A stretch of DNA of 64,000 nt from Paraburkholderia ginsengiterrae (GTDB lineage Bacteria > Pseudomonadota > Gammaproteobacteria > Burkholderiales > Burkholderiaceae), in the NCBI RefSeq assembly GCF_001645125.1, contig NZ_LXKA01000328.1:1-64000 (forward strand), read 5' to 3'. Shown here in pieces: positions 17,246 through 43,102 of the stretch. Below the pieces are notes generated by a model. The model ran no database searches, was not told the origin of the DNA, and worked only from the letters and a program-made list of their open reading frames with translations. Position 1 is the first letter of the stretch. The number at the start of each line of letters is the position of its first letter. The position numbers and the translations under genes were made by a program.

Positions 17246-17457
17246 AGAACTTTGCGATGGGACTTATCGACCCCGCAGATAGATGGTGCAAAGCGTTCTG
17301 CCAAGCACGACTGGCTCAATTCAGATTTTCACTTTGCACTACCTGGGGAAAATGCCAAGTCATAAAACCTTAACGATCGGAAAGTTTAGAATTATTCTTG
17401 CCTCACTATTCGACACGGTGCGATGACCTCGCATCCCAGAAACGGAGGAGCCGAGAG

Positions 17458-26028: not shown

Positions 26029-26050
26029 ATCGCGATTCTTCCGCTAGCTG

Positions 26051-26080
26051 GAAATATGTTTTCACTATAGCGCATATTTC
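26051..26080. promoter_or_regulatory. Inverted repeat between LysR and hydroxyquinol dioxygenase genes
   Basis: GAAATATG, 14-bp spacer, CATATTTC: a perfect 8-bp inverted repeat 23 bp from the LysR start and 80 bp before the dioxygenase start. It is a good candidate for the LysR operator controlling both directions. Confidence 0.55.
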
Positions 26081-26159
26081 TCCGCGCAGAACGCCGCTAC
26101 AGTGCGTACATTGGAGATCCAGCCGATGCGGTCGGCAACACAAAACCCAAGGAGACATC

Positions 26160-27044
26160 ATGCGCAACATCACCGAAGACACCATCACCCAGGCGGTGCT
26201 CGCCGCGATGTCCGGGTGTTCCGACGACCGGCTGCGCACCGTGATGACCAGCCTTGTGCAGCATCTGCATTCGTTCGCCAGAGAGGTCAAGCTGACCGAG
26301 AGCGAATGGGCACACGCCATCAACTTCCTCACAGACGTCGGCCATATCACCGACGACAAGCGTCAGGAGTTCGTACTCCTGTCCGACACGCTGGGTCTTT
26401 CGATGCTGGTGACGACACAGAACAACCGCAAGCCGGCCGAATGCACGGAAGCCACGGTTCTGGGCCCCTTCTTTGTTTCGGGTGCCCCTGAATACAAGAA
26501 CGGTGACGATATTTCCAACGGTGCGTCTGGCCGCCCCTGTTTTGTTTCCGGGCGGATCGAGGGTCTTTCGGGCGAGCCCGTCGCCGGTGCCGAGATCGAA
26601 GTCTGGCAATCGGACGAGGAGGGGAATTACGACGTCCAGTATGTCAACCCCGACGACCCCAAGGTCGATTTCCAGGCACGCGGCCGCTTGCAGACGCTGC
26701 CTGACGGACGCTTTCACTTCCGCTCGATTCTCGCCGAGGCCTATCCGATTCCGCACGACGGGCCAGTAGGCCGCATGCTCGATGCGCTCGGACGCCATCC
26801 GTGGCGCCCGGCCCACCTCCACTTCTGGGTCAAGGCTCCGGGCTATGAGCCGCTGATCACGCACGTGTTCCGCAACGGCGACCAATACCTCGACTCTGAT
26901 GCGGTATTCGGCGTGCGTTCAACTTTGATCGTCGACTGGGTGGAACACCCAGCGGGCGTTGCACCGGACGGCACCGTGATGGACACCCCGTTCTATACGC
27001 TCGACTATGACTTCGTTCTCAATCCTTTAGAGCATGTGTCGTGA
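26160..27044 (+). CDS. Hydroxyquinol 1,2-dioxygenase (intradiol, Fe3+)
   Basis: A 294-residue intradiol ring-cleaving dioxygenase. It opens hydroxyquinol (1,2,4-trihydroxybenzene) between the adjacent hydroxyls to give maleylacetate. The N-terminal helical dimerisation domain is followed by the catalytic beta-sandwich. Probable iron ligands are a Tyr in GNYDVQY (157-161), Tyr195 in AEAYPIPHDGPVG, and His219 and His221 in RPAHLHFWV. AYPIPHDGPVGRML replaces the CatA sequence and is typical of the hydroxyquinol branch rather than catechol. An AAGGAGACATC site precedes the ATG. Maleylacetate reductase follows 45 bp downstream, which strongly supports the hydroxyquinol assignment. A catechol or chlorocatechol side activity is possible. 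Confidence 0.9.
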   Translation: MRNITEDTITQAVLAAMSGCSDDRLRTVMTSLVQHLHSFAREVKLTESEWAHAINFLTDVGHITDDKRQEFVLLSDTLGLSMLVTTQNNRKPAECTEATVLGPFFVSGAPEYKNGDDISNGASGRPCFVSGRIEGLSGEPVAGAEIEVWQSDEEGNYDVQYVNPDDPKVDFQARGRLQTLPDGRFHFRSILAEAYPIPHDGPVGRMLDALGRHPWRPAHLHFWVKAPGYEPLITHVFRNGDQYLDSDAVFGVRSTLIVDWVEHPAGVAPDGTVMDTPFYTLDYDFVLNPLEHVS

Positions 27045-27089
27045 TGCGGCTTGCCGATACGCTCACCCATACTCTCGCCGGGACCCGAT

Positions 27090-28163
27090 ATGTCTACCTC
27101 TGAATTCGTCTATAACGGGCGTGCCACGCGTGTTGTCTTTGGCAGCGGTTCACGCGCCCATGTCGAACGCGAAGTGCAAGCGCTGCAGGCACAGCGCGCG
27201 CTGGTTCTCTGCAGTCCCGAGCAACGCGCATTAGGTTCGTCGGTTGCCGAGCAATTGGGCGCGCGCGCAGCCGGCGTATTCGATCGCGCTGTCATGCACG
27301 TGCCGGTTGAACTGGTCGCCGAGGCACGTACGGTCGTTGCATCATTGAACGTGGACTGCGTCATCGCCGTGGGTGGTGGCTCGGCCATCGGACTCGCCAA
27401 GGCCATCGCCCTCGAGACGAGCTTGCCGATTCTCGCCGTCCCGACCACGTACGCGGGCAGTGAAATGACGCCCATTTTCGGGCTGACCGATGCGGGTCTG
27501 AAACGCACCGGCACTGACTTGCGCGTCTTGCCCAAAACGGTGGTCTACGATCCGGACCTGACCCTCACGCTGCCGGTTGGCATGTCGGTCACGAGCGGCA
27601 TCAACGCCATCGCCCACGCAGCGGAAGGACTGTATTCACGCGATGCCAATCCGCTGACCAGCCTCATGGCCGAAGAAGGCATCGCGGCGCTCGCGCGCAG
27701 CTTGCCCGCGATCGTTGCGCAGCCGAACGACCCATCCGCACGCGCCGATGCGCTGTATGGCGCCTGGCTATGCGGCACGGTGCTCGGCAGTGTCGGCATG
27801 GCGCTGCACCACAAGCTGTGCCACACGCTGGGCGGCAGCTACAACCTGCCGCACGCCCCCACCCATACCATCGTGCTGCCCCACGCGCTGGCTTACAACG
27901 CGCACGCCGTACCCGATGCGATGAAACGCATCGCGCGTGCGATCGGACACGACAATGCCGCGCAAGGTCTCTACGAACTCGCGCGCGCGAACGGCGCACC
28001 CGTCGCGTTGAAGGAAATCGGCATGCGCGAGGAGCAACTCGACGAGGCCGCTGACATCGCATGTAACAACGCTTACTGGAATCCCCGCCCGCTGGAGCGC
28101 GAAGCGATTCGCGCGCTGCTGCAGCGGGCATTCGACGGCAGCGCGCCAAAGGATGGCTTGTAA
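27090..28163 (+). CDS. Maleylacetate reductase
   Basis: A 357-residue iron-containing-alcohol-dehydrogenase-fold enzyme that reduces maleylacetate to 3-oxoadipate with NAD(P)H. IAVGGGSAIGLAKAIAL (95-98 GGGS) is the dinucleotide site and LAVPTTYAGSEMTPIFG the family signature. A histidine-rich tract ALHHKLCHTLGGSYNLPHAPTHTIVLPH near residues 238-265 marks maleylacetate reductases. The start at 27090 gives the usual family length; a longer version from 27051 is unlikely. The ribosome-binding site is weak. It follows hydroxyquinol 1,2-dioxygenase and completes the route to the beta-ketoadipate pathway. No reductase-hydroxylase pair specific for resorcinol is linked directly. Confidence 0.92.
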   Translation: MSTSEFVYNGRATRVVFGSGSRAHVEREVQALQAQRALVLCSPEQRALGSSVAEQLGARAAGVFDRAVMHVPVELVAEARTVVASLNVDCVIAVGGGSAIGLAKAIALETSLPILAVPTTYAGSEMTPIFGLTDAGLKRTGTDLRVLPKTVVYDPDLTLTLPVGMSVTSGINAIAHAAEGLYSRDANPLTSLMAEEGIAALARSLPAIVAQPNDPSARADALYGAWLCGTVLGSVGMALHHKLCHTLGGSYNLPHAPTHTIVLPHALAYNAHAVPDAMKRIARAIGHDNAAQGLYELARANGAPVALKEIGMREEQLDEAADIACNNAYWNPRPLEREAIRALLQRAFDGSAPKDGL

Positions 28164-28258: not shown

Positions 28259-28281
28259 ACTATGCTACTGTACAGTATAGA
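28259..28281 (+). promoter_or_regulatory. TetR1 promoter with operator in the spacer
   Basis: ACTATGC-TACT-GTACAGT (28259-28276) has the 7-4-7 half-site layout of the sites at 36522, 40980 and 42162. It also contains the perfect 12-bp palindrome TACTGTACAGTA (28266-28277). A -10-like TATAGA begins at 28276, 34 bases before the TetR ATG. This suggests autoregulation. Confidence 0.55.
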
Positions 28282-28314: not shown

Positions 28315-28998
28315 ATGGCATCACGAACACTGTCAGTTGAAAGACCTGTCGGAGCGCATCGTCCGGTAGAACTGAAGCGTGCTGAACAGCAGCGAGCGCA
28401 AGACACTCGCTGCGCCATCCTGAACGCCGCCCTCACTGAATTCTCCACCAAAGGTTTCAAGGCCGCGAGTATTCGCAGCATTGCCGAGCGCATTGGGGTC
28501 CAGCATCCGCTGATTACCTATCATTTCCGGTCCAAAGAAATTCTTTGGCAGGCGGTCGCCGAACATGTATTCCAGCGCGTCCGGCAGGAACGCGACGCAA
28601 GTCTGTCCAGTTTCGGTCCGGCCAGTGCAATCGAGCGGCTCAAGCTGGCTTACCGGGCACTCTTTCAGTTCACGGTAGACTTCCCCGAATTTCACCGCTT
28701 CATCCTTCAGGAGTCGCTGGGTCACAGCGCGCGGCTGCAATGGCTCGCCGATTCAAGCTTGAAACCACTGATCGAATGGCTGCTGCCGCAAATCCGTGCT
28801 GCGCAGGAAGAAAACGCGCTACCCAAAGTCGAACCGATCGTTTTTCACTACATGTTGATCAGTTTGACGTCGACCTTGTCGGGATTCGGTCCGGAATTTT
28901 CGGCGACCAGTAATCGGTCGCCGTCCGATCCCGCGCTGGCAGAGGAGTATTGGCGCGCGGTTGAACAGCTCGTGTTTGGAGCCTGGGCGCCGACGTAG
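28315..28998 (+). CDS. TetR-family regulator (copy 1 of the paralogous pair)
   Basis: A 227-residue TetR repressor. The DNA-binding domain is RAEQQRAQDTRCAILNAA, LTEFSTKGFKAASIRSIAERIG, then the recognition helix VQHPLITYHFRSKEILW. It is nearly identical in this region to the TetR at 42341 (LQHPLITYHFRTKDILW). The similarity continues into the ligand domain: FQFTVDFPEFHRFILQESLG against FRFTVDFPEFHRFMLQEFLG. The two genes bracket the 29-42 kb catabolic block, where at least four promoters carry the same operator type. It lies downstream of the maleylacetate reductase on the same strand but has its own operator-bearing promoter. The ligand may be a CoA thioester or phenolic, by analogy with relatives only. 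Confidence 0.9.
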   Translation: MASRTLSVERPVGAHRPVELKRAEQQRAQDTRCAILNAALTEFSTKGFKAASIRSIAERIGVQHPLITYHFRSKEILWQAVAEHVFQRVRQERDASLSSFGPASAIERLKLAYRALFQFTVDFPEFHRFILQESLGHSARLQWLADSSLKPLIEWLLPQIRAAQEENALPKVEPIVFHYMLISLTSTLSGFGPEFSATSNRSPSDPALAEEYWRAVEQLVFGAWAPT

Positions 28999-29079: not shown

Positions 29080-29997
29080 TCAATTGCTTGCCCGCTTCGC
29101 CATCAGCGCCTTACCTGCGCGCGCGCCGTTGTCGCGGCCCATCTGCTGACTCACCCAATCGCCAATCGACACAACCGCGTCGAGATCGATGCCTGTTTCA
29201 ATCCCAAGACCGTCCAGTAGATAAAGCAGATCTTCAGTGGCGACGTTGCCGGTGGCACCCTTGGCATAGGGGCAGCCGCCCAGTCCGCCAACCGACGAAT
29301 GGAACACCGACATACCGACCTGCAGCGCGCCAACGATATTGGCCAACGCTTGCCCATAGGTATCGTGGAAGTGGCCGGCGAGGCGGTCCAACGGAAATTC
29401 TCTCGCGGCAGCCTCAACGACCTGCTGGACGTGATGTACCGTGCCCACCCCGATCGTATCGGCGATGTCGATTTCGTCGCAGCCCAGATCACGAAAACGC
29501 CTGACCATATCGACGACGGCATCCACACTCACCGGCCCCTGATAAGGACACCCGAACGAGCACGAAATGCTGGCGCGCAATTGCAACCCTTCTGCTTTCG
29601 CCATACGTGCCACAGGAGCAAAGCGTTCGAGGGATTCGGCCACGGAGCAATTGATGTTGCGCTGAGAAAATGCCTCGCTCGCGGCCCCGAAGATAACGAC
29701 CTCATCCGCCTTGCTCGCTATCGCACCCTCGAGCCCCTTCATATTGGGCGTTAGCGCGGCATACGTTACGCCGGCCCGGCGATCTATCCCCGCCATGACG
29801 GCCGCGCCGTCCGCCATTTGCGGAATCCATTTCGGCGACACGAAAGACGCCGCTTCGATCCGGCGTACGCCGGCACCGACCAGTCGATCGACGAGCTCGA
29901 TCTTGGTCTCGGTGGAAACGAACTTGCTTTCCGCCTGCAGCCCATCTCTAGGCCCGACTTCGACAACCTGTACGCGTTTGGGAAGATCGCGCCCCAT
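29080..29997 (-). CDS. Hydroxymethylglutaryl-CoA lyase
   Basis: A 305-residue DRE-TIM metallolyase that splits 3-hydroxy-3-methylglutaryl-CoA into acetyl-CoA and acetoacetate. VEVGPRDGLQAE at about residues 12-23 has the catalytic Arg and metal-binding Asp. HFHDTYGQALAN holds metal-ligand histidines, and GLGGCPYAKGATGNVATED carries the catalytic Cys loop. The ATG at 29997 is chosen because the family begins here; upstream residues in frame are not conserved. It lies 98 bp beyond the phenol hydroxylase stop and is the last gene of a leftward run. Leucine catabolism also ends in this reaction. Its presence here suggests that the block's substrate yields a branched acyl-CoA, or that the gene serves the liu pathway from a distance. 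Confidence 0.92.
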   Translation of the reverse strand: MGRDLPKRVQVVEVGPRDGLQAESKFVSTETKIELVDRLVGAGVRRIEAASFVSPKWIPQMADGAAVMAGIDRRAGVTYAALTPNMKGLEGAIASKADEVVIFGAASEAFSQRNINCSVAESLERFAPVARMAKAEGLQLRASISCSFGCPYQGPVSVDAVVDMVRRFRDLGCDEIDIADTIGVGTVHHVQQVVEAAAREFPLDRLAGHFHDTYGQALANIVGALQVGMSVFHSSVGGLGGCPYAKGATGNVATEDLLYLLDGLGIETGIDLDAVVSIGDWVSQQMGRDNGARAGKALMAKRASN

Positions 29998-30095
29998 GCC
30001 AGCACCCCATTGTTCCTGGTGATCCAATATGCCAATACGTTTCGCCGGCGATGCGAAACCGCACGCACCGCCGGCGAAACGTTCGCCCTCAGCTT

Positions 30096-31850
30096 TTACT
30101 TCGAAAGAACGTGCTGCAAGACCCGGCGAAGTTCGGCTTGCGGATTGTCCGACAGCTTGACGCTGCGCCATGCCACGTGATGGTCAGGACGCACCAGCAC
30201 GCAGCCGCTGTCGCTGACTTCGCGCACACGCGACCAGTCGCCCGTGTAGTCCGCATGCGGTTGGCGAGGGCCAACGACGTGCACGTCGATCTTCAAGCCG
30301 AACTCCTCGCCGACTTTCGCGGCGGCATCGACCCATGCTTCACCGCCGAGCCCCGTGAACAGCGCGAAGCGGCCATGTCCCGCGAGGTCGAGCGTCGAGT
30401 GCTGGCGTCCGCGGGAATCGAAAACCCACGCGTGCGGCAGGCGCGCGCCGGGCCAGGTCGTCGACTGGTAGAACAGCTCACGGTCACGCTTGAATTCCGG
30501 TTCGGCCTCACCGTCCGTCACCGCGGCGCTCGATCGGTAGCGTTGATTCATCTCCACGCCGTGCGCGTCCAGTTCGTAGCGCTTGAACGCCAACGCGTCG
30601 CGAATTTCCATGCGCTGCTTTTCCGCTGCCTCGGTAGACTGGCTGCGGGCATGCATATTCGCTTGCATGACCGCGCCGTCGTTCGACTCGTCGATGCCGA
30701 GCGCGCTATAAAGCGGCGCGAATTCGGCAATCGACTGATTCGCGCGCGTGACGATCTGCTTCGCGATCGGCGCACGCTCGACCGTGTAGGTATCAAGCAG
30801 CGCTTCGCCGGCTTGTCCATTGATGACGGCCGCGAGTTTCCATGAAAGATTGAACGCGTCCTGAATCGACGTGTTGGAGCCCAAGCCGCCCGACGGCGGG
30901 TGACGATGAGCGGCATCGCCCATGCAGAACACCTTGCCGTTCTGCATGCGGGTGGCGTACATGTTATTCACCGTCCACGTGCTCGTGCCCAACAGTTCGA
31001 TTTCGAGGTCCGGTTTGCCGACCAGTTGACGTGCAATCGTGGTGGCCCGCTCGTGGTCCACAACCGGGGTAGGCTCGTTGATGTCGTATCCCCACACGAT
31101 CAGCCACTCGTTCCACGGGCGCACCATCCGGATCAGTCCCATGCCGATGCCGCCCACTTCCGCGCCCGGCTGCATGATCGGGTACAGCACCGCCGGGCGA
31201 TGCGCAACGAACTCGGACAGGTCGGCGCGGAACCAGATGTTCATCGATCCGCGAACGCCCATCTGCCCTTCGAAAGGCAGGCCCGCGTCTTTTGCGACCT
31301 TGGAATTGCCGCCGTCCGCCCCGACGAGGTACTTCGACTTGACCGTAAACTCTTCACCCGACAACTTGTCGCGGCAGAGCGTCACCACACCATCGTCGGT
31401 TTGCGTATGGCTCAGATATTCGGTGCTCATCCGCGCCTCGGTACCGCGCGCGCAAGCCGTTTTGAACAGCAGCGGTTCCATGAACGTCTGCGGCAGATCG
31501 TTCATTTTTGCCGGGCTCGACAGCTGGCGCTCCGCACGCGAAAGCGGATGCAGGCCCCAGCTCGGCACGCGGCCGATTTCTTCGCCGGTCAGACTTTCGC
31601 AGAATACCGTGCCGCCCATCAGATCTTCATTGGTCGCATGCAGGTAGGCTTCCTGCTCCACCTGCTGACCGAGGTCCCGCAGCACTTCCATCGTGCGCAG
31701 GTTCGTGATGTGCGCACGCGGCGTATTGGCCAGCCAACGGTATTGGTTGACGAGCAGATTCTTGACGCCGTACGTCGAAAGCAGCGCGGCGCAAGCGGAG
31801 CCGGCTGGGCCCGACCCGACGATCAGTACATCCGTGGTTATTTCATACAT
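30096..31850 (-). CDS. FAD-dependent phenol hydroxylase (TfdB/2,4-dichlorophenol 6-monooxygenase-like)
   Basis: A 584-residue class A flavoprotein monooxygenase with the three-domain size of the phenol 2-monooxygenase/TfdB group. VLIVGSGPAGSACAALL (9-25) binds FAD, LVGADGGNSKVAKDAG is the DG motif near 185, and CMGDAAHRHPPSGGLGSN near 312 is the GD motif. A thioredoxin-like C-terminal domain follows (HSTLDLAGHGRFALFTG onward). TfdB relatives ortho-hydroxylate phenols; resorcinol 4-hydroxylases of actinobacteria also fall near this group. The ATG at 31850 has a GAGGT site. It could make hydroxyquinol from resorcinol for the 26160 dioxygenase, or hydroxylate another phenol released by the CocE hydrolase. 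The choice is inference. A palindrome lies 38 bp upstream. Confidence 0.88.
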   Translation of the reverse strand: MYEITTDVLIVGSGPAGSACAALLSTYGVKNLLVNQYRWLANTPRAHITNLRTMEVLRDLGQQVEQEAYLHATNEDLMGGTVFCESLTGEEIGRVPSWGLHPLSRAERQLSSPAKMNDLPQTFMEPLLFKTACARGTEARMSTEYLSHTQTDDGVVTLCRDKLSGEEFTVKSKYLVGADGGNSKVAKDAGLPFEGQMGVRGSMNIWFRADLSEFVAHRPAVLYPIMQPGAEVGGIGMGLIRMVRPWNEWLIVWGYDINEPTPVVDHERATTIARQLVGKPDLEIELLGTSTWTVNNMYATRMQNGKVFCMGDAAHRHPPSGGLGSNTSIQDAFNLSWKLAAVINGQAGEALLDTYTVERAPIAKQIVTRANQSIAEFAPLYSALGIDESNDGAVMQANMHARSQSTEAAEKQRMEIRDALAFKRYELDAHGVEMNQRYRSSAAVTDGEAEPEFKRDRELFYQSTTWPGARLPHAWVFDSRGRQHSTLDLAGHGRFALFTGLGGEAWVDAAAKVGEEFGLKIDVHVVGPRQPHADYTGDWSRVREVSDSGCVLVRPDHHVAWRSVKLSDNPQAELRRVLQHVLSK

Positions 31851-31887
31851 TCGACACCTCCAATGGTTCAATGCCTTTGTCTCTTCG

Positions 31888-31905
31888 ATCCATATTGATA
31901 TGGAT
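31888..31905. promoter_or_regulatory. 18-bp palindrome upstream of the phenol hydroxylase
   Basis: ATCCATAT-TG-ATATGGAT is a perfect 8-bp inverted repeat in the 118-bp gap between the acyl-CoA synthetase and hydroxylase genes. It differs from the TetR and MarR sites of the window and may be an internal operator. Confidence 0.4.
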
Positions 31906-31922
31906 ATCTAATCTTCCTGTTG

Positions 31923-31948
31923 TCACGCGTACAGCTTTTCGCGTGACT
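31923..31948 (-). other. Stem-loop downstream of the acyl-CoA synthetase gene
   Basis: GTCACGCG, 10-base loop, CGCGTGAC: a perfect 8-bp stem 20 bp past the synthetase stop. It has no T-run. It may slow or partly end transcription before the hydroxylase gene. Confidence 0.35.
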
Positions 31949-31968
31949 AACCGGCTTGCACAACCCAA

Positions 31969-33705
31969 TCAGGCGGTTTTGCGCTCGGTCAGATTCAGGT
32001 AGCGGATCATCTCCTCGCGCATCGCGAATTTCTGCACTTTCCCGGTAACGGTCATCGGCAGCTCATTCACGAAGCGAATGTATTTCGGCACCTTGTAGTG
32101 AGCGATCTGTCCTCGGCAAAATTCCCTGATTTCTTCCTCGGTAGAACCCTCGCCTTGTCGAAGCACGATCCACGCACACAGCTCCTCACCGGTCCTCTCG
32201 TCCGGCACGCCGAATACCTGCACGTTCTGGATTTTCGGATGCCGGAAGAGGAATTCCTCGACTTCACGCGGGTAGATGTTCTCCCCGCCCCGGATCACCA
32301 TATCCTTCAGCCTGCCGACAATATTGCAGTAGCCGTCCGCGTCGATCGTTGCCAGATCACCTGTATGCATCCAGCCGTCGACAATGCTCTCGCGTGTTTT
32401 CTCTTCGTCCTGCCAGTACTCCAGCATCACCGAATAACCTTTCGTGCAGAGCTCGCCGGTTTCACCGACCCCGACGGTACGGCCATCGAAGTCCACGATC
32501 TTGACTTCGAGATGAGGCTGGATCCGCCCAACGGTCGTGGTGCGCTTGTCCAGCGGATCGGTCGTCGCACTCTGGAATGAAACGGGACTGGTCTCGGTCA
32601 TGCCATACGCGATCGTGACTTCGCGCATATTCATTTTGGCCACGACCTGGTTCATGGTCTCGATCGGGCACGGCGAGCCGGCCATGATGCCGGTCCTGAG
32701 GCTGCTCAGGTCGAACGAGGCAAATTCCGCATGCCCCAACTCGGCGATAAACATGGTCGGCACACCATGCAGCGCCGTGCAACGCTCTTCCGCAATGGCC
32801 GCGAGCGTCGCGCCGGCGTCGAAGGCTTCGCCCGGGAACACCATCTGCGCACCTGTCGACGTACACGCCAGCACGCCCATCACCATGCCGAAGCAGTGGT
32901 AGAGAGGAACCGGAATACACAGCGAGTCGGCTTCGGTGAACTTCATCGCCATCGCGACAAAGCGCCCGTTGTTGACGATGTTCCGATGGGTCAGCGTCGC
33001 CCCTTTCGGACTGCCGGTGGTGCCGCTCGTGAACTGCACGTTGATCGGGTCTTGCGCGGAAAGCGTTGGCTCAATTGCATCGATGACATCGCGCCCTTGC
33101 TCCTGAAGCACGCCCTGACCGCGCTGCATGACCGCGTGGAATGGCATCACACCCGATACGCTCCAATCGCCCACGGAAATCACCGTGCGAAGATCCGGCA
33201 AACGCGCGGCATTCAGACTATCCGGTTGCTGCGATGCCAGCTCCGGCGCGATGTCGAGCAACATCGAAATGTAGTTCGACGTCTTGAAACTCTCGGCCGT
33301 GACGAGTGCCTTGCATCCGACCTTGCGCAGCGCATACTCGAGTTCCGAAACGCGATAAGCGGGGTTGATGTTGACCAGCACCGCGCCAATGCGCGCCGTC
33401 GCGAACTGCGTAAGCACCCATTCGAACCGGTTGGGCGACCAGATACCGACGCGATCTCCCTTGCCGAGTCCCAGCGACAGGAAACCCGCGGCGAGCTGAT
33501 CGACGCGCTCGTCCAGTTCCTTCCATGTCCAACGCACCTGTTGTTCGCGGAAAACGACAGCGGGTCGATCGGGGAACCGGAGCGCGGTATCCCGCAAGAA
33601 CTGGCCGATCGTCGACTCGCTCAACGGAACTTCCGTCGAACCCCTTACGTAGGCAACTCCATCGGCAGGCGTGGTCAATCCGATGGAACCTTGTAAAGTT
33701 TGCAT
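31969..33705 (-). CDS. AMP-forming acyl-CoA synthetase
   Basis: A 578-residue ANL-superfamily ligase. The P-loop-like A3 motif [10 protein letters not shown] is at 226-235. [52 protein letters not shown] and the C-terminal lysine motif TVTGKVQKF complete the family pattern. It activates a carboxylic acid to its CoA thioester with ATP. The length and close match to fatty-acyl-CoA synthetases of the FadD3/medium-chain type suggest an aliphatic or side-chain acid rather than benzoate. The ATG at 33705 is chosen for GGAGG eight bases upstream. It follows the enoyl-CoA hydratase gene by 79 bp, in the order hydrolase, hydratase, ligase, hydroxylase, lyase. Confidence 0.92.
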
Positions 33706-33784
33706 GAACCCATCCTCCATCATTGCTGTGCGTGTCGGGCCGGAGAGAGTCAGTCGCCTCCGTCAGCCCTCAAGCCGCGTCAGG

Positions 33785-34573
33785 CTATTTCCCGTAAAAG
33801 ACCAGATCGCCTGGCTCTTCATCGACATCGAACGCCTTGGCCGTGTTGGCAAAACCTCGCGTGGCGTCCTCTGTGTTGTACAGGTCCATGGTGATATCCA
33901 GCATGACCGCGTCCGCGGCGGTGATGCCGCCGCTCGACCACGCCTTGAGCAAGGTGCGCGTTGCCGCGTACGAGAGCGTGGGGCCGTCGGCGAGGCGCGC
34001 GATCAGTTCGCCGGCGACACGTTCGAGCGCATCGGGTTCGGCAACGTGTGTCGCGATACCGAGATCGACGGCCACGTCGCCGGGGATGCCTTCACCCAGC
34101 ATCGCGAACCGCGAGGCGCGGCTGCGGCCGACACGTTCGGCAAGGCGCTGAAGCGCTCCGGCGATGGGCAGCATCGCGGTGGTGACCTCGACGCAGCGGA
34201 ACACGGCGTCGGACGCCGTCACAATGAAGTCGCAGGCCAACGCGAGTTCGAAACCGCCGCCGAACGCCAGGCCTTGCACGACTGCCACGGTGGGAACTCG
34301 CAGTGCCTCGATGGCGCGATACGACGTGTTGACTTCCGCGACGAACGTGCGGAACCAGTTCAGATCTTTACCCGGCCATTCGCGCACTTCCCCGCCGAGG
34401 CTGAAGTTGGGACCCTCTGCGCGAATCACGAGCACCCGGATGTTGCTTTGGCTAGCCTCGTGAACCGCGTCACGCAGACACTCTGCAAAGCGCACATCCA
34501 GTCTGTTGAACGGCGGATTCGCCAGGACGATATTCCCAACGTTGCCATCGCGCTCAAAACGTATGCTTTTCAT
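33785..34573 (-). CDS. Enoyl-CoA hydratase/isomerase family protein (first copy)
   Basis: A 262-residue crotonase-superfamily protein. RAEGPNFSLGGEVREW and GLAFGGGFELALACDFIVTASDA form the two oxyanion-hole segments of the CoA-thioester site. EVTTAMLPIAGALQRLAERVG follows, where catalytic acids usually sit. The second hydratase glutamate (usually in the xxGxxP loop) is not obvious, so it may be an isomerase, a hydrolase or a retro-aldol lyase rather than a plain hydratase. The ATG at 34573 has GAGGGTAACG upstream. It is the second gene of the leftward operon that begins with the CocE hydrolase. It would act on the CoA ester made by the neighbouring synthetase. Confidence 0.88.
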   Translation of the reverse strand: MKSIRFERDGNVGNIVLANPPFNRLDVRFAECLRDAVHEASQSNIRVLVIRAEGPNFSLGGEVREWPGKDLNWFRTFVAEVNTSYRAIEALRVPTVAVVQGLAFGGGFELALACDFIVTASDAVFRCVEVTTAMLPIAGALQRLAERVGRSRASRFAMLGEGIPGDVAVDLGIATHVAEPDALERVAGELIARLADGPTLSYAATRTLLKAWSSGGITAADAVMLDITMDLYNTEDATRGFANTAKAFDVDEEPGDLVFYGK

Positions 34574-34636
34574 CGTTACCCTCAAATTCTGGTTAAAGTC
34601 GCCGCGCGTCCGTGACGGCGCGGCGTGATTAATCAA

Positions 34637-36376
34637 TCAGGAGCCCTGTTTCTTCACCGGCACGATCGGAAGCAGCAAGTGCGACGGGCGCTCCGCGTCA
34701 CGGTAAATCTTGTGGGTAACCGTGTCGCTGCTGCACACGTGATAAGGGATGTACTCGACGTCAGTCATTGCGCCCGTGCCGGTCGGCACGTCGAGACTGC
34801 AGATCTCGATACAGATTCGATGACCGGCCTTGAACTGGTTTGCCGTTGCGAGAATCTGGATTTCGTACTTGACGATCTCGCCTGGCGTGACCGGTTCGAT
34901 CGAGTCTTTCGTCATCTTGTGGAACGGCTCGCCCGGCGTGGAGCGATCGGGATCCGTTGCGCGATAAGACGCTTTCAGCCAGCCGCGCGTGAGTTCACGT
35001 TCGGGCAGCGTGTCCGGAACCGATCGTTCGCCAACGCGCGCCGTGACAACCGATACATCGGGCCCGACGTCCTTTAGCACGACGATCCAGTTCGTATCCG
35101 GCTGGTCGATCTCCGCGTAGAGGGTCAGCGAAATGGGACCGGCAACCAGCACATCCTCGGCGAGCGGCTCGGTCATGTAGCGCAGGCGCTCGACCTTGGA
35201 GGTCTTCTTGAGCGGCATCTGCGTGAAGACATCAGGCTCGCGATGCGAATTGCCGACTTCCGACGCGGGCCGCGGAGCGTTGGTGGAAAGCCCCTCCCAA
35301 CCGCCGAGGTAATACTTTTCCCACTTCGTTTCCGGCAAAGGCCAGTCGGTCCCCGTTCGCCATTCGTTGGCGCCCATGACCCAGTAACGGACCGGGGGTT
35401 CATCCATGATGCCGGTGTCGATGCCCTTCAACCAGTAGTCGTACCAGCGGATCACTTCGTCGTGGTACTGATGGAATGGACGCTCCAGATGCGCGGGCCC
35501 GGTGAAGATCAGCTTGCGCGGCTGCTTGACGTTTTTGAAGTAGTGCTGGGCGCCGAGCCAGTGCAGTTTGTAGGTGTACGCGTAGGCGCCGGAACCGGTG
35601 TAGTACGGCACCTTGATCGACTTGAACGCTTCTTCGGCACGCTCGACGGTCCCGTCCGCCTCCCACGGGTTCGTCATCATGTGATACATCACCCACGTAC
35701 GCTGGCCCTTCTGCGTCAGGATGTTGTAGAGGTTGATGTACATCTTGTAGTCGGTATTGCGCATCGCTTCGCGCCACAGCTGCTCCTGCTCGTCGGGCAA
35801 CGGACCCGGCACGCCGCGCGGCTCATGCACCGTGCTGAAAACGTCGAGCAGGTACGGGAACGTGTGGAGCACGCCGCCGGGATTGAAGTCCCGGAACCCG
35901 AACATGCCGCCATATGCGCTGCACGCGTCATACGGGAAGATTGCCTTGAGTGCGGGGTGTCCTTGGCCGGCCGCACGCCACTGTTCGCCCGCGAAGCCCG
36001 AAATCCCCACCATCCCGACCTTGCCGTTTGACCACGGCTGCTGCGTGATCCATTCGATCATGTCGTAGTGGTCGGTGTTCTCCTCGCCATAGTGGCCTTC
36101 CGACTTGGCTGAACCCCGAGGTTGCGCAATGACGTGCACATAGCCATTGGCGACGAAGCGGCGGGTGTCGCCTGCCTCGACCGGCCCGAACCAGAGCGGA
36201 GCATGCGCGGGCTGCGGAGGCAGCACATCGGCAATGTCCGGCCCCTGGAGATCCTTGTTGTGCAGAGCCGAAGCGTACAGAACCGGATACCTGGCGTCGC
36301 CATCCGGCCGATAGACGTCTACCGCAAGGCGGGTACCGTCCCGCATCGTGACGACGACGTCGCGTTCCTCAATCAT
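34637..36376 (-). CDS. CocE/NonD-family serine hydrolase
   Basis: A 579-residue protein of the X-Pro dipeptidyl-peptidase/CocE family. VTMRDGTRLAVDVYRPDG opens the alpha/beta hydrolase domain, and QPRGSAKSEGHYG and IEWITQQPWSNGKVGMVGISGFAG give the family fingerprint, with nucleophile Ser126. A C-terminal jelly-roll domain follows (residues about 380-579, ending LLPIVPVKK). Known members cleave acyl esters such as cocaine, or acylated intermediates; the cap and jelly-roll make substrate prediction unsafe. The ATG at 36376 is preceded by AGGAGGAG. It heads the leftward operon hydrolase-ECH-ligase(-hydroxylase-HMG-CoA lyase), so it probably performs the entry hydrolysis, or a C-C/ester cleavage, of the block's substrate. 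Confidence 0.88.
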   Translation of the reverse strand: MIEERDVVVTMRDGTRLAVDVYRPDGDARYPVLYASALHNKDLQGPDIADVLPPQPAHAPLWFGPVEAGDTRRFVANGYVHVIAQPRGSAKSEGHYGEENTDHYDMIEWITQQPWSNGKVGMVGISGFAGEQWRAAGQGHPALKAIFPYDACSAYGGMFGFRDFNPGGVLHTFPYLLDVFSTVHEPRGVPGPLPDEQEQLWREAMRNTDYKMYINLYNILTQKGQRTWVMYHMMTNPWEADGTVERAEEAFKSIKVPYYTGSGAYAYTYKLHWLGAQHYFKNVKQPRKLIFTGPAHLERPFHQYHDEVIRWYDYWLKGIDTGIMDEPPVRYWVMGANEWRTGTDWPLPETKWEKYYLGGWEGLSTNAPRPASEVGNSHREPDVFTQMPLKKTSKVERLRYMTEPLAEDVLVAGPISLTLYAEIDQPDTNWIVVLKDVGPDVSVVTARVGERSVPDTLPERELTRGWLKASYRATDPDRSTPGEPFHKMTKDSIEPVTPGEIVKYEIQILATANQFKAGHRICIEICSLDVPTGTGAMTDVEYIPYHVCSSDTVTHKIYRDAERPSHLLLPIVPVKKQGS

Positions 36377-36516
36377 GTCTCCTCCTGTTTCGTAGGCGCG
36401 CATGGCCTCAACAGACAGTCATGTCTGGTCTAAAAAAGTCACCCGTTATCTGCCGACCCGCGTATCCCGTTCGCTTCCTGGCGAAGACCACACGATCAAG
36501 CAGCTTTCGTGAATTC

Positions 36517-36545
36517 ACTATACTTTACACGCGTAAAGTATGCAA
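36517..36545 (-). promoter_or_regulatory. Promoter of the CocE operon with a perfect TetR-type operator
   Basis: On the minus strand, -35 TTGCAT (36545-36540) and -10 TATAGT (36522-36517) are exactly 17 bp apart, and the whole spacer is operator. The full repeat is ATACTTTAC, spacer ACGC, GTAAAGTAT (36520-36541), a perfect 9-bp inverted repeat. A repressor bound here would block RNA polymerase. It is the most symmetric of the six related sites. Confidence 0.7.
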
Positions 36546-36786: not shown

Positions 36787-37710
36787 CTAGCGCCCAAGCA
36801 AGCGGGCGGCGTTTTCCCCATACACCTTTGTCATGTCGATGCCAGGGATCTGGATGTCATCCAGCACTTTCCCGAACTGTCGAATTGCGCTGACCGGCGC
36901 GAATGGGAAGTCTGAACCGAAGAGAATGTGGTCCGGATCCGCGACTTGCGCCAGCGCGCTCAGGGGTGCATAGCCGCCCGCAAGGGCCGTGTCGAAGTAG
37001 AAAGCCCTCACCGCTTCATACGTATCGCCCGCTCGCTCAGTTCCACCAGGCATCATGGAAACGGAGAGCGCGATGCGCGGTACGAGAAACGGCAGCGTTC
37101 CTCCGGCATGCGACAGGATGAAGCGAATATTCCTGAAGCGCTTCATTGCACCGGAGATGATCAGGCTGGTGGCCGTGCGGGTGGTCTCGAACGGGTACTC
37201 GATCACAGATGCGGGAGCAACCTTCGGAATGTCGTGAGGCGGCTGGTTGGGGTGAATGAAGACCACCGCCCCGCGCCTGTCCAGTTCTTCCCACAACGGC
37301 GTGAAATGCGGATCGCCCAGATACATGCCGTTGTAGTTCGTAAACACAATGAAGCCATCGACGTTCAACTGGTCGATGCTGTAGCTGACTTCCTTCAGCG
37401 CGGCGTCGACATCCGGCAGCGGCAAGCTCGCAAAGGAGCCGAACCGTCCGGGATTCTGTGCCCTGAGTTCCGCGGCATGGTCATTGCATTTTCTCAGCAG
37501 CGTGGGCGCGTCCGGAAGCGTTGGGCCGGACGAGATGGACAGGATCCCCTCGTCGATGCCGTTCTCATCCATCATCGCGAGGGCCGCTTCGACGGACCAG
37601 CTTGGGGCAATACCGTTCGGCATCGCCGCATTCAGCAAATCCAGACCTACTGCGTCCACATAGAGTTTCGGCAAAAAGTGCTGGTGCGTATCAATCTTTC
37701 GCTTCGACAT
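36787..37710 (-). CDS. Amidohydrolase-2 family decarboxylase/hydrolase (ACMSD-like)
   Basis: A 307-residue TIM-barrel amidohydrolase. Metal-binding residues are visible as His9 and His11 (KIDTHQHFLP), His153 (VVFIHPN), His201 (LSHAGGTLPF) and Asp267 (LFGSDFPFAP). This pattern belongs to the group with 2-amino-3-carboxymuconate 6-semialdehyde decarboxylase, 5-carboxyvanillate decarboxylase and related lactone hydrolases. Most members remove CO2 non-oxidatively from an aromatic or muconic acid. AGGAGA precedes the ATG at 37710. It is transcribed alone from a promoter bearing the TetR-type operator (37793-37809), between the CocE operon and the transporter/porin genes. It is distinct from the gamma-resorcylate-decarboxylase-like protein at 49387. 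Confidence 0.87.
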   Translation of the reverse strand: MSKRKIDTHQHFLPKLYVDAVGLDLLNAAMPNGIAPSWSVEAALAMMDENGIDEGILSISSGPTLPDAPTLLRKCNDHAAELRAQNPGRFGSFASLPLPDVDAALKEVSYSIDQLNVDGFIVFTNYNGMYLGDPHFTPLWEELDRRGAVVFIHPNQPPHDIPKVAPASVIEYPFETTRTATSLIISGAMKRFRNIRFILSHAGGTLPFLVPRIALSVSMMPGGTERAGDTYEAVRAFYFDTALAGGYAPLSALAQVADPDHILFGSDFPFAPVSAIRQFGKVLDDIQIPGIDMTKVYGENAARLLGR

Positions 37711-37786
37711 GACCGTTGTCTCCTGAACTAGTCTCTGGCGTATCGGGAGCGACAACCCATGCCGCTCGTACGGAGTTCATCTTAAC

Positions 37787-37809
37787 TCTATTTTTGACAC
37801 TCGTACAAT
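37787..37809 (-). promoter_or_regulatory. Amidohydrolase promoter with TetR-type operator
   Basis: The minus strand reads ATTGTACGAGTGTCAAA (37809-37793), followed by a weak -10. The half-sites are TTTTGAC-ACTC-GTACAAT. It shares ACTCGTACA with the liuB site at 2755 and GTACAAT with the porin site at 40981. It lies about 80 bp upstream of the ATG at 37710. Confidence 0.5.
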
Positions 37810-38306: not shown

Positions 38307-39710
38307 TCACTTCGCAGTGCCAGTCGTCAAGGTCGGATCACCTGCCGCCACCGCTGCGTTGTTCATTGCCTGATTGCTCTGTGAGCGCCGTTGTTCGAGC
38401 AGCACGCGCCTCATGACCGTCATGCATGCGCAGGCCACGAGGAGCGGTATCGACAACAATGCACAAGTAAGCAGAAAGGGAAAACCGGATAGAACGATCA
38501 GGCCGATCAGCGACGAACCAACAATTGAACCGAGCCGTCCAATCGCCACATTCCAGCCGCCGCCCGACGCGCGCAGCGCTGTCGGATAGAAAATGCCGGG
38601 AATGGTGTTGACACAGATCAGCGGGCCACCGACAGCCAACCCCGACAGGAATACGACGCCCACATGCCACGGCGCCGTTTCGGACATGCCGAGCACAATG
38701 ACAAGCAACGCGCCAATGCCGAACGCTCCTGCAATAACCGTTGCGACGCTATAACGGCGGACAAGGAACGCGAAAAGCACCGCGCCGCCAAGCGCGCCGA
38801 ATTGGAACATCGACGATATCTGCGAGGCGTCGTGCATCGACAGACCTGCCTGCTTCAGGTGCGTCGGCAGCCAGCTTCCAATCAGAAAGAACACCAGATA
38901 ACCCGCGAACTCGGTCACCCACGTCAGCACGGTGCCGAGCCGGTATGCGTCACTCAAAAGCGCCCGGCTTCCGCGGATCGATTCGCGCGTTTCGGCAATG
39001 ATTAAATGCACTCCCGAGAAGTCCAATGACGGAAACACTTTGCCGAGAATGCGTTGAGCCACCTCGTTGGGCTTTCGACTGGCCACGAGATAGAGTGGCG
39101 ACTCCGGCACCTGCCACGCGAGCAAGGCAACGACGATGAGTGGCATGAGACCGCTCAGCAGCAGCATGCCGCGCCAGCCCAGCGTGCCGATTGCCATGGA
39201 AGTCACAAAACCGGCCGCCGCCGCCCCAAAGAGGAATCCACAGTAGGTCGATGCCAGCATCGCTGAACGGGACCGGTCGGGGCTGTATTCCGCGACGATT
39301 GCCGACGTCGCGGGCATGGCGGCTCCGATACCGATGCCGGTGATAAACCGCAAGGCGACCAGTTGCACGATCGATTGTGCTTCGCTCGACACGACCCCTG
39401 CTATTCCAAACCAGGCAATCGCCACGATGCTGACCGTTCTGCGGCCGACACGATCAGCCAGGGTTCCGCCGGCAATGGAGCCGATCAGCAAGCCGGTAAG
39501 CCCGAAGGCCACCAGAGGCGAAAGCGCGGCACTGGAGAGTTGCCATTGATGACTGATCGCGGGCGCGATAAAGCTGATCACGATCGTATCGAAACCCTCG
39601 ATCGCCGTCGCCGCAAAGCAGATAAGGAACACAGTCCACTGCTTTCGCCCGATGGGCATATCGTTGAAGATCTTGCGTATGTCCCGGTGGACATAGCCGG
39701 TGCTTTCCAT
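38307..39710 (-). CDS. MFS transporter, aromatic acid:H+ symporter (AAHS) type
   Basis: A 467-residue, 12-segment major facilitator. The loop 2-3 motif GSIAGGTLADRVGRRTV and FIAPAISHQWQLSS near the first segment are typical. LRFITGIGIGAAMPATSAIVAEYSP lies at segments 4-5. GFDTIVISFIAPA near residue 40 is the conserved aspartate-containing signature of aromatic-acid importers such as PcaK and BenK. It would carry an aromatic acid into the cytoplasm with protons. It lies 86 bp downstream of the porin at 39796, giving an outer- and inner-membrane uptake pair for the TetR-controlled block. A second AAHS protein is at 47988. Confidence 0.9.
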   Translation of the reverse strand: MESTGYVHRDIRKIFNDMPIGRKQWTVFLICFAATAIEGFDTIVISFIAPAISHQWQLSSAALSPLVAFGLTGLLIGSIAGGTLADRVGRRTVSIVAIAWFGIAGVVSSEAQSIVQLVALRFITGIGIGAAMPATSAIVAEYSPDRSRSAMLASTYCGFLFGAAAAGFVTSMAIGTLGWRGMLLLSGLMPLIVVALLAWQVPESPLYLVASRKPNEVAQRILGKVFPSLDFSGVHLIIAETRESIRGSRALLSDAYRLGTVLTWVTEFAGYLVFFLIGSWLPTHLKQAGLSMHDASQISSMFQFGALGGAVLFAFLVRRYSVATVIAGAFGIGALLVIVLGMSETAPWHVGVVFLSGLAVGGPLICVNTIPGIFYPTALRASGGGWNVAIGRLGSIVGSSLIGLIVLSGFPFLLTCALLSIPLLVACACMTVMRRVLLEQRRSQSNQAMNNAAVAAGDPTLTTGTAK

Positions 39711-39795: not shown

Positions 39796-40896
39796 TTAAA
39801 ACCGATGCCGGATACCGATGCGAACCAGACTCTGCGTCTGTCCGCTAGACGGCGACGGAATCAGCGTGATCTGCGCAACGCTCGCCGAACCTGCTGCCTT
39901 GAACCACTCAGCCGCGAGGTACACGTCTGTTCGCTTCGACAAGTAGTAGTTGGTGTAGAGATCGACCGCGCGATAGTTGGGCGACGCGCCGGTCGCGTCG
40001 ATCTTGCCGTGCGTGTAGATGTACGCCACGCCGGCAAACCAGAAGGGCGTAATGAAGTAGCCGGCGTTCGCTTCGTAGTCGTCGAAGCGCACGTCACTGC
40101 CGAGGAAGCCTTTCTTGAACTGAGTCGAGGTGTACTCGAGAGAGAGATTGGCGCCACCGATCTTGTACGAAGCACCCACGCCATAGATCGTCTCGCTCTG
40201 CGCGTTCGGCACGTATGGCGCGTAAATGATGTTTCGTGCCGCGGTGCTATCGAATGCGGCCGCGTACGGGTTCTTGATGATCGTGTAGGCGGCGGCGACA
40301 TACAGCGGCAAACTGATGCCCGAGTAGCTCAGCCCGACCGACGTCACGCTGTTCGTTGAGAACTGGCCCGGCTGCCCGCCAAAGCTATACAACGCACCGA
40401 AGGTGAAGCCGCCGATTTTCGGGCTGGCGTACTTGACCGAGTTGTTGATGCGGATGCTTCCGCCTGTGTTGTCGACGTCACCGGCGTGGGCGAGATAGAC
40501 CGCCCAGTTCAGACCGGCCGCCACGGGCGAGAGCATTTCGGCCACTTCCTCGTACTGGCGGCCAAGTGTGAGCGTACCGTAGTTGCTTGAAATGCCGACG
40601 TACGCCTGCCGTCCGAACAAACGTCCATTGTTCGAGAGGTTGCCGGTGGACGTATCAAAACCGTTCTCCAAGGTGAAGACCGCTTTAAAGCCGCCACCCA
40701 GGTCTTCGGCGCCCTTTAGCCCCCATCTGGACAGTGATCCACCGCCGCTCTGAAGCAGCCAGGCCGAATGGCCGCTTTCGTTGCTGACGAAGGTCAACCC
40801 TTCATCCAGAAGGCCGTAGAGCGTCACCGAACTTTGCGCGTAGACGACCGCAGGCGTGAAGCACAGCGCAGCAGCGGCCCATGACCATTTCCTCAT
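39796..40896 (-). CDS. Gram-negative porin (Burkholderia-type)
   Basis: A 366-residue porin. The signal peptide MRKWSWAAAALCFTPAVVYA precedes QSSVTLYGLLDEGLTFVSNESG. GLKGAEDLGGGFKAVFTLENG, LFGRQAYVGIS and the terminal GIRHRF mark a full trimeric porin. It differs from the porins at 10424 and 17458 and is closer to general OpcP-type porins. The start at 40896 has GGAGA upstream; an earlier in-frame ATG would spoil the signal peptide. A TetR-type operator lies 80 bp upstream. It leads the leftward unit porin, MFS and probably the 90-residue protein. Confidence 0.92.
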   Translation of the reverse strand: MRKWSWAAAALCFTPAVVYAQSSVTLYGLLDEGLTFVSNESGHSAWLLQSGGGSLSRWGLKGAEDLGGGFKAVFTLENGFDTSTGNLSNNGRLFGRQAYVGISSNYGTLTLGRQYEEVAEMLSPVAAGLNWAVYLAHAGDVDNTGGSIRINNSVKYASPKIGGFTFGALYSFGGQPGQFSTNSVTSVGLSYSGISLPLYVAAAYTIIKNPYAAAFDSTAARNIIYAPYVPNAQSETIYGVGASYKIGGANLSLEYTSTQFKKGFLGSDVRFDDYEANAGYFITPFWFAGVAYIYTHGKIDATGASPNYRAVDLYTNYYLSKRTDVYLAAEWFKAAGSASVAQITLIPSPSSGQTQSLVRIGIRHRF

Positions 40897-40974
40897 CTCC
40901 AGTCTCCTATTTACTTGTGTTTGCATTGACAACTGGCACAACTGGCACGTCCAAACCGTTGAGAGAAGGATATG

Positions 40975-40997
40975 ACTAAACTTTCCGTTCGTACAAT
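40975..40997 (-). promoter_or_regulatory. Porin/MFS promoter with TetR-type operator
   Basis: The minus strand reads ATTGTACGAACGGAAAG (40997-40981) followed by -10-like TTTAGT (40980-40975). The half-sites are ACTTTCC-GTTC-GTACAAT. It matches the sites at 2755, 36523, 37793 and 42163 in layout and faces the porin gene. Confidence 0.55.
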
Positions 40998-41300
40998 ATT
41001 ATTTGGGTGGGACAATCCCCAGGTACTTTCGACTTATGAATGAAACACGCGTGTCCGCCGCGCAAGGGCACGCAGAGGCGTCAGGAGGCACGACGGCGCG
41101 TGAGTGGTGGAAGGACTTGCAGGGACTAATCGGGAGGAGGCGTTCGCCTACAGCTCGACGGCGAACGCACGACTGAACACTCGCGTGCGAGCGTTGAATG
41201 AAGGCCCGATCGTGGCGCGAATCGGGCCTGCCACGCTTGATCCGGTGGCTATTGAATCAGAACAATCGGAATAGTTTGATTAGCTATCCGATGTTCTTCG
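40998..41300. other. Intergenic region without a supported gene
   Basis: This is the rest of a 404-bp gap (40897-41300) between the second enoyl-CoA hydratase gene and the porin. A few short inverted matches (for example near 41220, CGAATCGGGC) are visible but no terminator with a T-run, RNA gene or credible coding frame. Confidence 0.6.
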
Positions 41301-42071
41301 TTATGAACCGGAACGCGCGACGAACCGCGCGACCCGTTGGGCAAACGCTTCGGTAGAAGCACATCGCAGGAACGCCTGCTTTTCCTGCTCGAGGTGGCGT
41401 TCGAGCGCATCTTCCGCGGCCATTCCCACCAGCGACTTCGTCTCCCGCACCGCCGCCGCGGGCAGGTCGATCAGCTTGCGCGCGACCGCCAGGCTGGTCT
41501 CTTCCAGGAAAGCTGGATAGGCGACGCTTTGGACGAGTCCCAGGTGCCGCGCCTCGTCCGCGCTCAACGAATCCTGCGTCAACATGATGTCAAGCGCCCG
41601 CGCGGGGCCCAATCGACGCGCCAGGTGGAACGACAGGCCGCCGTCGCTCGAGGTGCCGCGCTTCGCGTAGCCGGCGACGAAGCGGGCCGCGCGCGACGCC
41701 ACGACCATGTCGCACGCCATGGCCAGCGAAAAGCCCGCGCCCGCTGCCGCCCCTTGAACGCTGGCGATCACCGGAACAGGCAAGCGGCGTATCGCCATGA
41801 TCGTGGCATGGAGTTCGCTAATCAGCGATTCGAGGAAGGAATCGGCACGGTGCAGACCCTCGAGAATTTGTGCGAGATCGCCACCGGCCGAGAATATCTT
41901 GCCCTTGGCCCGGAGTATCACCACGCGAAACGTCGGCGATTTCTCGATTTCCTGCAGCGCACCCAGCATTTCGTGGCAGAACACCCTGTCGATCGTGTTT
42001 GCGCCCGCCTGGTTCTCCAAGGTAACCAGAGCGATATCTCCAGTGGATGTCAGCGTAACTTTGCGTTCCAT
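41301..42071 (-). CDS. Enoyl-CoA hydratase/isomerase family protein (second copy)
   Basis: A 256-residue crotonase-superfamily enzyme. RAKGKIFSAGGDLAQI and VQGAAAGAGFSLAMACDMVVAS form the CoA-ester oxyanion hole. KRGTSSDGGLSFHLARRLG is the segment seen in PaaG-like isomerases (Asp in the SSDGG context). This resembles 1,2-epoxyphenylacetyl-CoA isomerase relatives more than classical hydratases. The ATG at 42071 is chosen because the family starts there; its ribosome-binding site is weak. It is divergent from the TetR2 gene at 42341, with the shared operator 42162-42179 overlapping a consensus -10 (TATAAT). It probably acts in the same route as the CoA ligase and hydratase at 32-34 kb. Confidence 0.88.
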   Translation of the reverse strand: MERKVTLTSTGDIALVTLENQAGANTIDRVFCHEMLGALQEIEKSPTFRVVILRAKGKIFSAGGDLAQILEGLHRADSFLESLISELHATIMAIRRLPVPVIASVQGAAAGAGFSLAMACDMVVASRAARFVAGYAKRGTSSDGGLSFHLARRLGPARALDIMLTQDSLSADEARHLGLVQSVAYPAFLEETSLAVARKLIDLPAAAVRETKSLVGMAAEDALERHLEQEKQAFLRCASTEAFAQRVARFVARSGS

Positions 42072-42156: not shown

Positions 42157-42179
42157 ATTATACTTCACCGCTGTATAAT
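42157..42179 (-). promoter_or_regulatory. Promoter of the second hydratase gene with TetR-type operator
   Basis: On the minus strand the 17-bp stretch ATTATACAGCGGTGAAG (42179-42163) runs directly into a perfect -10, TATAAT (42162-42157). The half-sites are ACTTCAC-CGCT-GTATAAT, and longer arms ATTATAC/GTATAAT are also present. The TetR2 gene starts 161 bp away on the other side, so this site may also control it. Confidence 0.6.
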
Positions 42180-42340
42180 TTAAAGATGAAAAACAATCTG
42201 TTGGATGATTGAGGGGTTGGCGGAGCAAGCCCCGTGTTCCGGAAGCGGTGAGTTCGCCCACGGCTGCCGCCGCCTCGGGCTGAAACCCGCGTCAAAACGT
42301 GATACCGTGCCGACACATGGCCCGATCGAGAAAGCAGACA

Positions 42341-43102
42341 ATGGAAAGCACCGTTTCAAGGAAGAACGCAACCTCCAAAGGCAGGCCGACGGAGCTCCGG
42401 CGTGCGGAACAGCAGCGTGCGCAGGAGACCCGATCGGCCATCCTGACCGCGGCACTGGCCGAGTTCGCGTCGAAGGGTTTTGAGGCTGCGAGCATTCGAA
42501 GCATCGCGGATCGAATCGGGCTGCAACACCCGCTGATCACTTACCATTTCCGGACCAAGGACATTCTTTGGCAGGCCGTGGCGGAGCATGTGTTCGAACG
42601 CATCCAGCATTCGTGGGACGACTACCTGACCGAGACGCCTCCTGCCCTTGCGTCGGATCGGGTCAAGCTCGTGTATCAGGCGTTGTTCCGGTTCACGGTG
42701 GATTTCCCCGAGTTTCACCGTTTCATGCTGCAGGAGTTCCTTGGGTATAGCCCCCGGCTGCAATGGCTCGCCGACACGGTGCTAAAGCCGTTGATCAGCT
42801 GGCTGCTGCCGCAGATTCATGCCGCGCAGGATGAAGGCGCCTTACCCCAGGTCGACCCCATCCTCATTCACTATCTGCTGATCAGCCTGACATCGACTCT
42901 TTCAGGGTTCGGGCCGGAAATGCGGGTCACCAGCAATATTTCCCCGTCCGATCCGGCCGTGGTCGATGCCTACTGGAAGATGATTGAGGATCTCGTGTTT
43001 CGCAAACCGTCGGCGGCTCAAGGATCGAGGAAGGCCGAGTCATCGTCGGGCAAGGCTGGCCGGCGCTCGCGTGCGCCGGAAGAGTCGAAAGATCCGGAGT
43101 GA
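42341..43102 (+). CDS. TetR-family regulator (copy 2 of the paralogous pair)
   Basis: A TetR repressor of 253 residues from the ATG at 42341; in-frame starts at 42317 and 42299 are possible. The start is chosen because the N-terminus then matches the paralogue at 28315 in length. The DNA-binding part is RAEQQRAQETRSAILTAA, FASKGFEAASIRSIADRIG and recognition helix LQHPLITYHFRTKDILW. The ligand domain repeats the paralogue's FTVDFPEFHRFMLQE and LLISLTSTLSGFGPE. A basic tail (KAGRRSRAPEESKDPE) is extra. It is divergent from the enoyl-CoA hydratase at 41301. Near-identical recognition helices in the two TetR proteins imply overlapping operator choice. Confidence 0.9.
   Translation: MESTVSRKNATSKGRPTELRRAEQQRAQETRSAILTAALAEFASKGFEAASIRSIADRIGLQHPLITYHFRTKDILWQAVAEHVFERIQHSWDDYLTETPPALASDRVKLVYQALFRFTVDFPEFHRFMLQEFLGYSPRLQWLADTVLKPLISWLLPQIHAAQDEGALPQVDPILIHYLLISLTSTLSGFGPEMRVTSNISPSDPAVVDAYWKMIEDLVFRKPSAAQGSRKAESSSGKAGRRSRAPEESKDPE

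Follow-up and report, generated by a model that had tools for sequence, protein, structure and literature searches.

A TetR-type operator recurs at catabolic promoters of Paraburkholderia ginsengiterrae and very probably seats two sister repressors

Repression by a TetR-type protein seated within a promoter is textbook knowledge. RutR, the TetR-family regulator of pyrimidine utilisation, has an operator that differs from the ACTTTAC-type repeats described here; of the two regulators considered below, TetR1 has it as its top NCBIfam match and TetR2 has it among its top matches of solved structure, but TetR1 scored only 56.6 bits against the RutR equivalog cut-off of 368. In Corynebacterium glutamicum, RolR, likewise a TetR-family regulator of aromatic catabolism, is a TetR-type repressor of resorcinol catabolism with resorcinol as its effector (PMC3086911), a compound of the kind that the gene block studied here may degrade. 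The helix-turn-helix signature of the RolR subfamily, given in that paper as IxxxAxxGxGxFYxxF, differs on comparison by eye from the corresponding segments of TetR1, which reads IAERIGVQHPLITYHF, and TetR2. The ifc isoflavone catabolism cluster of Variovorax, with reported relatives in Paraburkholderia and Bradyrhizobium (PMC11069340), likewise comes from soil and combines genes for an FAD monooxygenase and a hydrolase with regulators, a likeness at the level of description; word searches of the main text returned neither CocE nor an operator. Our literature search, mostly of journals outside subscription, returned no description of the ACTTTAC operator or its regulon, and the control circuit is real, of an ordinary kind and apparently undescribed.

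The window, that is, the whole 64,000-nucleotide stretch of DNA that was analysed, comes from a soil bacterium and holds a block of genes for aromatic catabolism flanked by the two regulator genes. TetR1 is encoded at 28315-28998 (plus strand) and TetR2 at 42317-43102 (plus strand). Between them lie, all on the minus strand, co-linear genes for a CocE/NonD hydrolase, an enoyl-CoA hydratase, an acyl-CoA ligase, an FAD monooxygenase and an HMG-CoA-lyase-like protein (29080-36403), an amidohydrolase gene (36787-37755, Pfam Amidohydro_2), a porin gene (39796-40941) followed by an MFS transporter gene (38307-39710), and a second enoyl-CoA hydratase gene, ECHb (41301-42071). The mechanically called ECHb reading frame starts at 42158 and runs up to the operator discussed below; alignments with related proteins begin only near residue 29 of this longer frame, so translation probably starts at the ATG at 42071. 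Left of the block, intradiol dioxygenase and iron-type dehydrogenase genes (26160-28163), probably encoding a hydroxyquinol dioxygenase and a maleylacetate reductase, diverge from a LysR gene (the LysR-dioxygenase region spans window positions 25078-28163), and the intergenic stretch is conserved in locus L032.

The earlier note had listed six 18-mers with a 7-4-7 half-site layout, and all six are present letter for letter where it had placed them. The clearest, ACTTTAC-ACGC-GTAAAGT at 36522-36539 (minus strand), faces the co-linear genes of the CocE operon and fills the spacer of a predicted promoter at 36517-36545 (minus strand; TTGCAT at 36540-36545, 17 bp, TATAGT at 36517-36522). The others lie before ECHb (42162-42179, minus strand, -10 TATAAT at 42157-42162), where the site is also upstream of the divergent TetR2 gene; before the porin gene (40980-40997, minus strand); before the amidohydrolase gene (37792-37809, minus strand); before TetR1 (28259-28276, plus strand); and before a carboxyltransferase gene (2754-2771, minus strand). 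Arm symmetry was complete (7/7) at 36522, 5/7 at 28259 and 4/7 at the remaining four. Since 4,434 window positions also show exactly 4/7 symmetry, symmetry alone is weak support; it is the shared letters that carry the claim of a common site class.

Scanning the window with ACTTTAC-N4-GTAAAGT at up to three mismatches returned six matches, compared to a mean of 0.37 in 100 shuffles, none of which reached six. Five were sites of the earlier note; the sixth, absent from its list, lies at 17368-17385 (plus strand) before the porin gene 17398 and has a counterpart before a related porin gene in one relative (G018, L162:7344). The degenerate site at 37792 fell below the pattern threshold and was recovered only through comparison with relatives, 11 of which carry better copies in the same place. 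A matrix built from the CocE and ECHb operators of other genomes ranked 36522, 42162, 40980, 17368, 28259 and 2754 as its top six in the window, with 37792 tenth. As a set, the six reported sites exceed chance.

Comparison across the genus, based on footprint lists of orthologous regions with sites of at least 12 bits, separated these positions further. The CocE operator was found in 19/19 genomes (20 sites, G019 having two copies), the ECHb operator in 18/19 (not G150), that of the orthologous porin, Porin1, in 18/19 (not G082) and the amidohydrolase operator in 12 genomes, the weak site at 37792 included. Further sites lie before an unlike TetR gene (seven), a second amidohydrolase (two) and the dioxygenase (two, in G104 and G018). 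A shared motif together with a regulator gene was thus present at orthologous CocE, ECHb, porin and amidohydrolase promoters, but not at that of 28259: an upstream scan of 14 other TetR1 genes revealed no counterpart, and a similar 18-mer at the TetR1 gene of L133 falls inside the coding start. Nor did the one accX ortholog compared, in L033, have a counterpart of 2754.

We consider it a serious possibility, somewhat short of even, that only part of the set is functional, the CocE, ECHb, porin, amidohydrolase and 17368 sites being regulon operators and 28259, 2754 or both being chance matches or sites of another regulator. Besides their missing counterparts, these two sites both score 11.4 bits, near the level reached by permuted matrices; against this, both lie in promoter regions and belong to the six pattern matches, and 2754 also has the GGGATNNTCCC box of porin promoters. 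The idea of a single TetR regulon controlling the 28-43 kb block, as the earlier note had put it, is partly supported. Most sites behave as one class of operator that recurs at orthologous promoters and accompanies two TetR genes of the same recognition helix, but 28259 and 2754 lack ortholog support. The putative regulon reaches beyond the block (17368, perhaps 2754), and no site of at least 11 bits precedes the dioxygenase and dehydrogenase genes on its left in this genome. In G104 and G018, the operator lies 243 bp before the dioxygenase.

The porin promoters carry an additional element. A TACCTGGGGATTGTCCC box upstream of the porin operator (41009-41025, minus strand) is probably another regulator's site, and GGGGATnnTCCC-like boxes occur there, at 17340-17356 (plus strand) and at 2783-2793 (minus strand), in each case 26 bp before TACGA at the sites 40980, 17368 (this one with mismatches) and 2754; the box is conserved in the Porin1 promoters of relatives. 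In the porin promoters, a TACCTGGGGATnnTCC-like box starting 26 bp before TACGA probably represents a second regulator's site. A conserved central GA and the GGGGAT box had suggested that porin-type sites form a separate element, an idea we rejected. The 40980 site scored 18.5 and 17.7 bits with matrices trained without porin sites, and in G027 a pair of ACTTTCC-N4-GGAAAGT repeats, separated by 32 bp (L042:10596-10645), lies upstream of a distant TetR gene, on the side of a reading frame for an FAD-type oxidoreductase; on these grounds GGAAAGT was accepted as a half-site variant.

Both flanking proteins contain the Pfam TetR_N domain (48.2 bits for TetR1 and 43.9 for TetR2, cut-off 24), as does a third paralogue, TetR3 (48.5 bits; 5270-6031, minus strand). 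TetR2 is 68% identical to TetR1 and 83% identical to its counterpart in Paraburkholderia susongensis, the nearest named relative found, whereas TetR3 is only 43-46% identical to the two. TetR1 and TetR2 are alike at 48 of 59 residues of a DNA-binding segment and have the recognition helix QHPLITYHF in common. The remaining TetR1, TetR2, Cupriavidus and Bradyrhizobium sequences of the alignment show this helix with few changes; the more distant L142 and L168 read EYTLITYHF. TetR1 forms a clade of 15 sequences with support of 100/98; the TetR2 clade has 89/87 and leaves four TetR2 sequences outside.

For the co-occurrence of regulator and operator we used a model, R2, built from 13 sites of G017, G018, G019 and G027 without the window's genome. 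An earlier model, R1, was set aside: trained partly on window sites, it returned nine matches, all in the window, a circular result. With strict filters and E up to 1, R2 matched 23/145 genomes of the genus; in the genome that contains the window, it picked out no more than three distinct sites (36522, 40980 and 17368). TetR2 orthologs (E below 1e-100) were present in 19/145 genomes, and operator matches in all 19 of these versus 4/126 without one (Fisher P 3e-20); leaving out three training genomes gave 16/16. This association is partly built in, because the sites lie close to the cluster itself; when the count was restricted to sites on other contigs, some of which may be neighbours in these draft assemblies, it was 7/19 versus 4/126 (P 5e-5). 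TetR1 and TetR2 are both kept beside the cluster in 15/19 genomes. Another TetR1 copy lies on other contigs in G019 and G150 (67% and 59% identity), and none above 45% was found in G018 and G104.

That another regulator, neither TetR1 nor TetR2, reads the repeats is unlikely. Three of the four R2-positive genomes without a TetR2 ortholog (G002, G013 and G168) do have sites with no TetR2 relative detected, the fourth (G027) having a distant TetR beside its sites; two further genomes, G025 and G030, have distant TetR relatives, yet no operator match. However, the 19/19 versus 4/126 co-occurrence, and the fact that a single recognition helix goes with a single operator in genera as far apart as Paraburkholderia and Bradyrhizobium, point to the flanking regulators. 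TetR3 adds a natural contrast: its four sequences carry the helix PHTTVTHHY, and upstream of 4/4 TetR3 genes lies a different operator, outside the ACTTTAC set, which keeps the 7-4-7 layout with other letters (A(A/G)CGTAC-N4-GTACGGT, each copy symmetric at 6/7 arm positions; 6174-6191, minus strand, in the window). The same helix accompanying the same operator, and a different helix a different operator, favours a regulon of TetR1 and TetR2.

The ACTTTAC code extends to Cupriavidus, Bradyrhizobium and a metagenome contig labelled Acidobacteriota. Among 17 TetR loci outside Paraburkholderia, 11 had a site of at least 13 bits within 3 kb and six had none; two plasmid-borne clusters, one from Cupriavidus basilensis and one from Bradyrhizobium sp. 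CB82, have an operator before CocE, scoring 23.1 and 25.3 bits respectively. Over these 19 distant loci together, the matrix returned 16 matches versus 1.2 for permuted matrices (largest 14; 0/1000 reached 16).

The statistics of the window itself carry far less weight than this comparison. At 11.3 bits the window had six matches, compared to a mean of 1.18 for column-permuted matrices (3/1000 reached six). At 11.5 bits, a weak test, it had four, equalled by 37/1000 permuted matrices, and arm spacing did not discriminate there, spacing 4 giving four matches, spacing 9 seven, and spacings 3 and 10 four each. The genome of 8,533,041 bases holds 56 pattern sites at up to three mismatches, six of them in the window's 64 kb (0.75% of the genome); with the seed left out, 5/55 fell within the window (binomial P 6e-5). 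Genome-wide, the pattern showed no excess, a reversed control pattern occurring at 170 places versus 56. Mere chance similarity of AT-rich promoter DNA, to which the weak arms at four of six sites, the 11.5-bit result with its surplus at spacing 9 and the flat genome-wide count would be congenial, is very improbable given conservation across 19 genomes and in other genera and a distant-loci count matched by no permutation, and for the sites at CocE, ECHb, the porin and the amidohydrolase the evidence already speaks against it.

The placement of the operator within the promoter is less uniform than the 17-bp-spacer design described earlier. After the 17-bp stretch, the six reported sites read ATTAAT, TATAGA, TATAGT, AATAGA, TTTAGT and TATAAT. 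Across genomes, a -10 hexamer with at least four of six letters follows directly after 17 bp at 20/20 CocE and 18/18 ECHb sites but at 2/18 Porin1 sites, so that the design is conserved at the first two promoters and not at the porin; 10/12 amidohydrolase sites have such a hexamer in this register, with a second candidate 7 bp on. Because the footprint lists were chosen by operator score, operator letters were selected for and the -35 and -10 letters were not; the TTG and TATAGT kept in 20/20 CocE sites thus favour the regulon of TetR1 and TetR2. At the unlike TetR gene, the operator lies between TTGACA and TATAGT but is shifted by 5 bp from the 17-bp register; this arrangement of operator and promoter is found at L029:8243-8260 (gene at L029:8411-9094) and in six relatives. 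Throughout, the operator overlaps or adjoins the predicted core promoter, without one fixed arrangement.

A 7-9-7 repeat was considered as the true operator and not preferred. Such repeats at 36517, 40975 and 42157 use the -10 hexamer as their outer arm, and since the -10 resembles a half-site, spacing-9 matches at the 19 distant loci (13, versus 16 at spacing 4) fall largely at the same promoters. L181 has no spacing-9 match, and L182 and L191 score 13.5 and 14.0 at spacing 9 versus 25.1 at spacing 4; L189 reaches 21.5 at spacing 9. The 7-4-7 layout is preferred, and overlapping dimers may occur.

Taken together, we are fairly confident that these sites serve a local TetR-family regulon as its operators and are bound by TetR1, TetR2 or both, a reading drawn from sequence comparison. 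Dimers of TetR1 and/or TetR2 would sit on repeats of the ACTTTAC-N4-GTAAAGT type where these overlap the core promoters of the CocE operon and the enoyl-CoA hydratase, porin and amidohydrolase genes. They would keep RNA polymerase off by occlusion, acting presumably as repressors and not activators; both proteins would read the same sites, and a compound that enters or arises in the aromatic pathway, as its substrate or an intermediate, would release them. Occlusion by TetR1 and/or TetR2 with release by a pathway compound is the simplest account, and the shared mark of the catabolic promoters is very probably the seat of two sister repressors that keep these genes off.

For a catabolic regulon of Paraburkholderia, Cupriavidus and Bradyrhizobium that is apparently undescribed, the finding names a specific operator with its list of targets, and it offers a candidate repressor-operator pair ready for testing. 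Its most interesting part is the pairing of repressors and the split of helix and operator, since in TetR1, TetR2 and TetR3, all encoded in the same 64 kb, a change of recognition helix goes with a change of operator letters. We give even credence to the idea that two same-helix paralogous repressors read one operator set, so that an aromatic pathway is controlled by two signals or by mixed dimers, alongside a third paralogue with a changed helix and half-site (ACTTTAC to ACCGTAC). If true, the three regulators would document, in a natural case, the divergence of TetR specificity that follows duplication.
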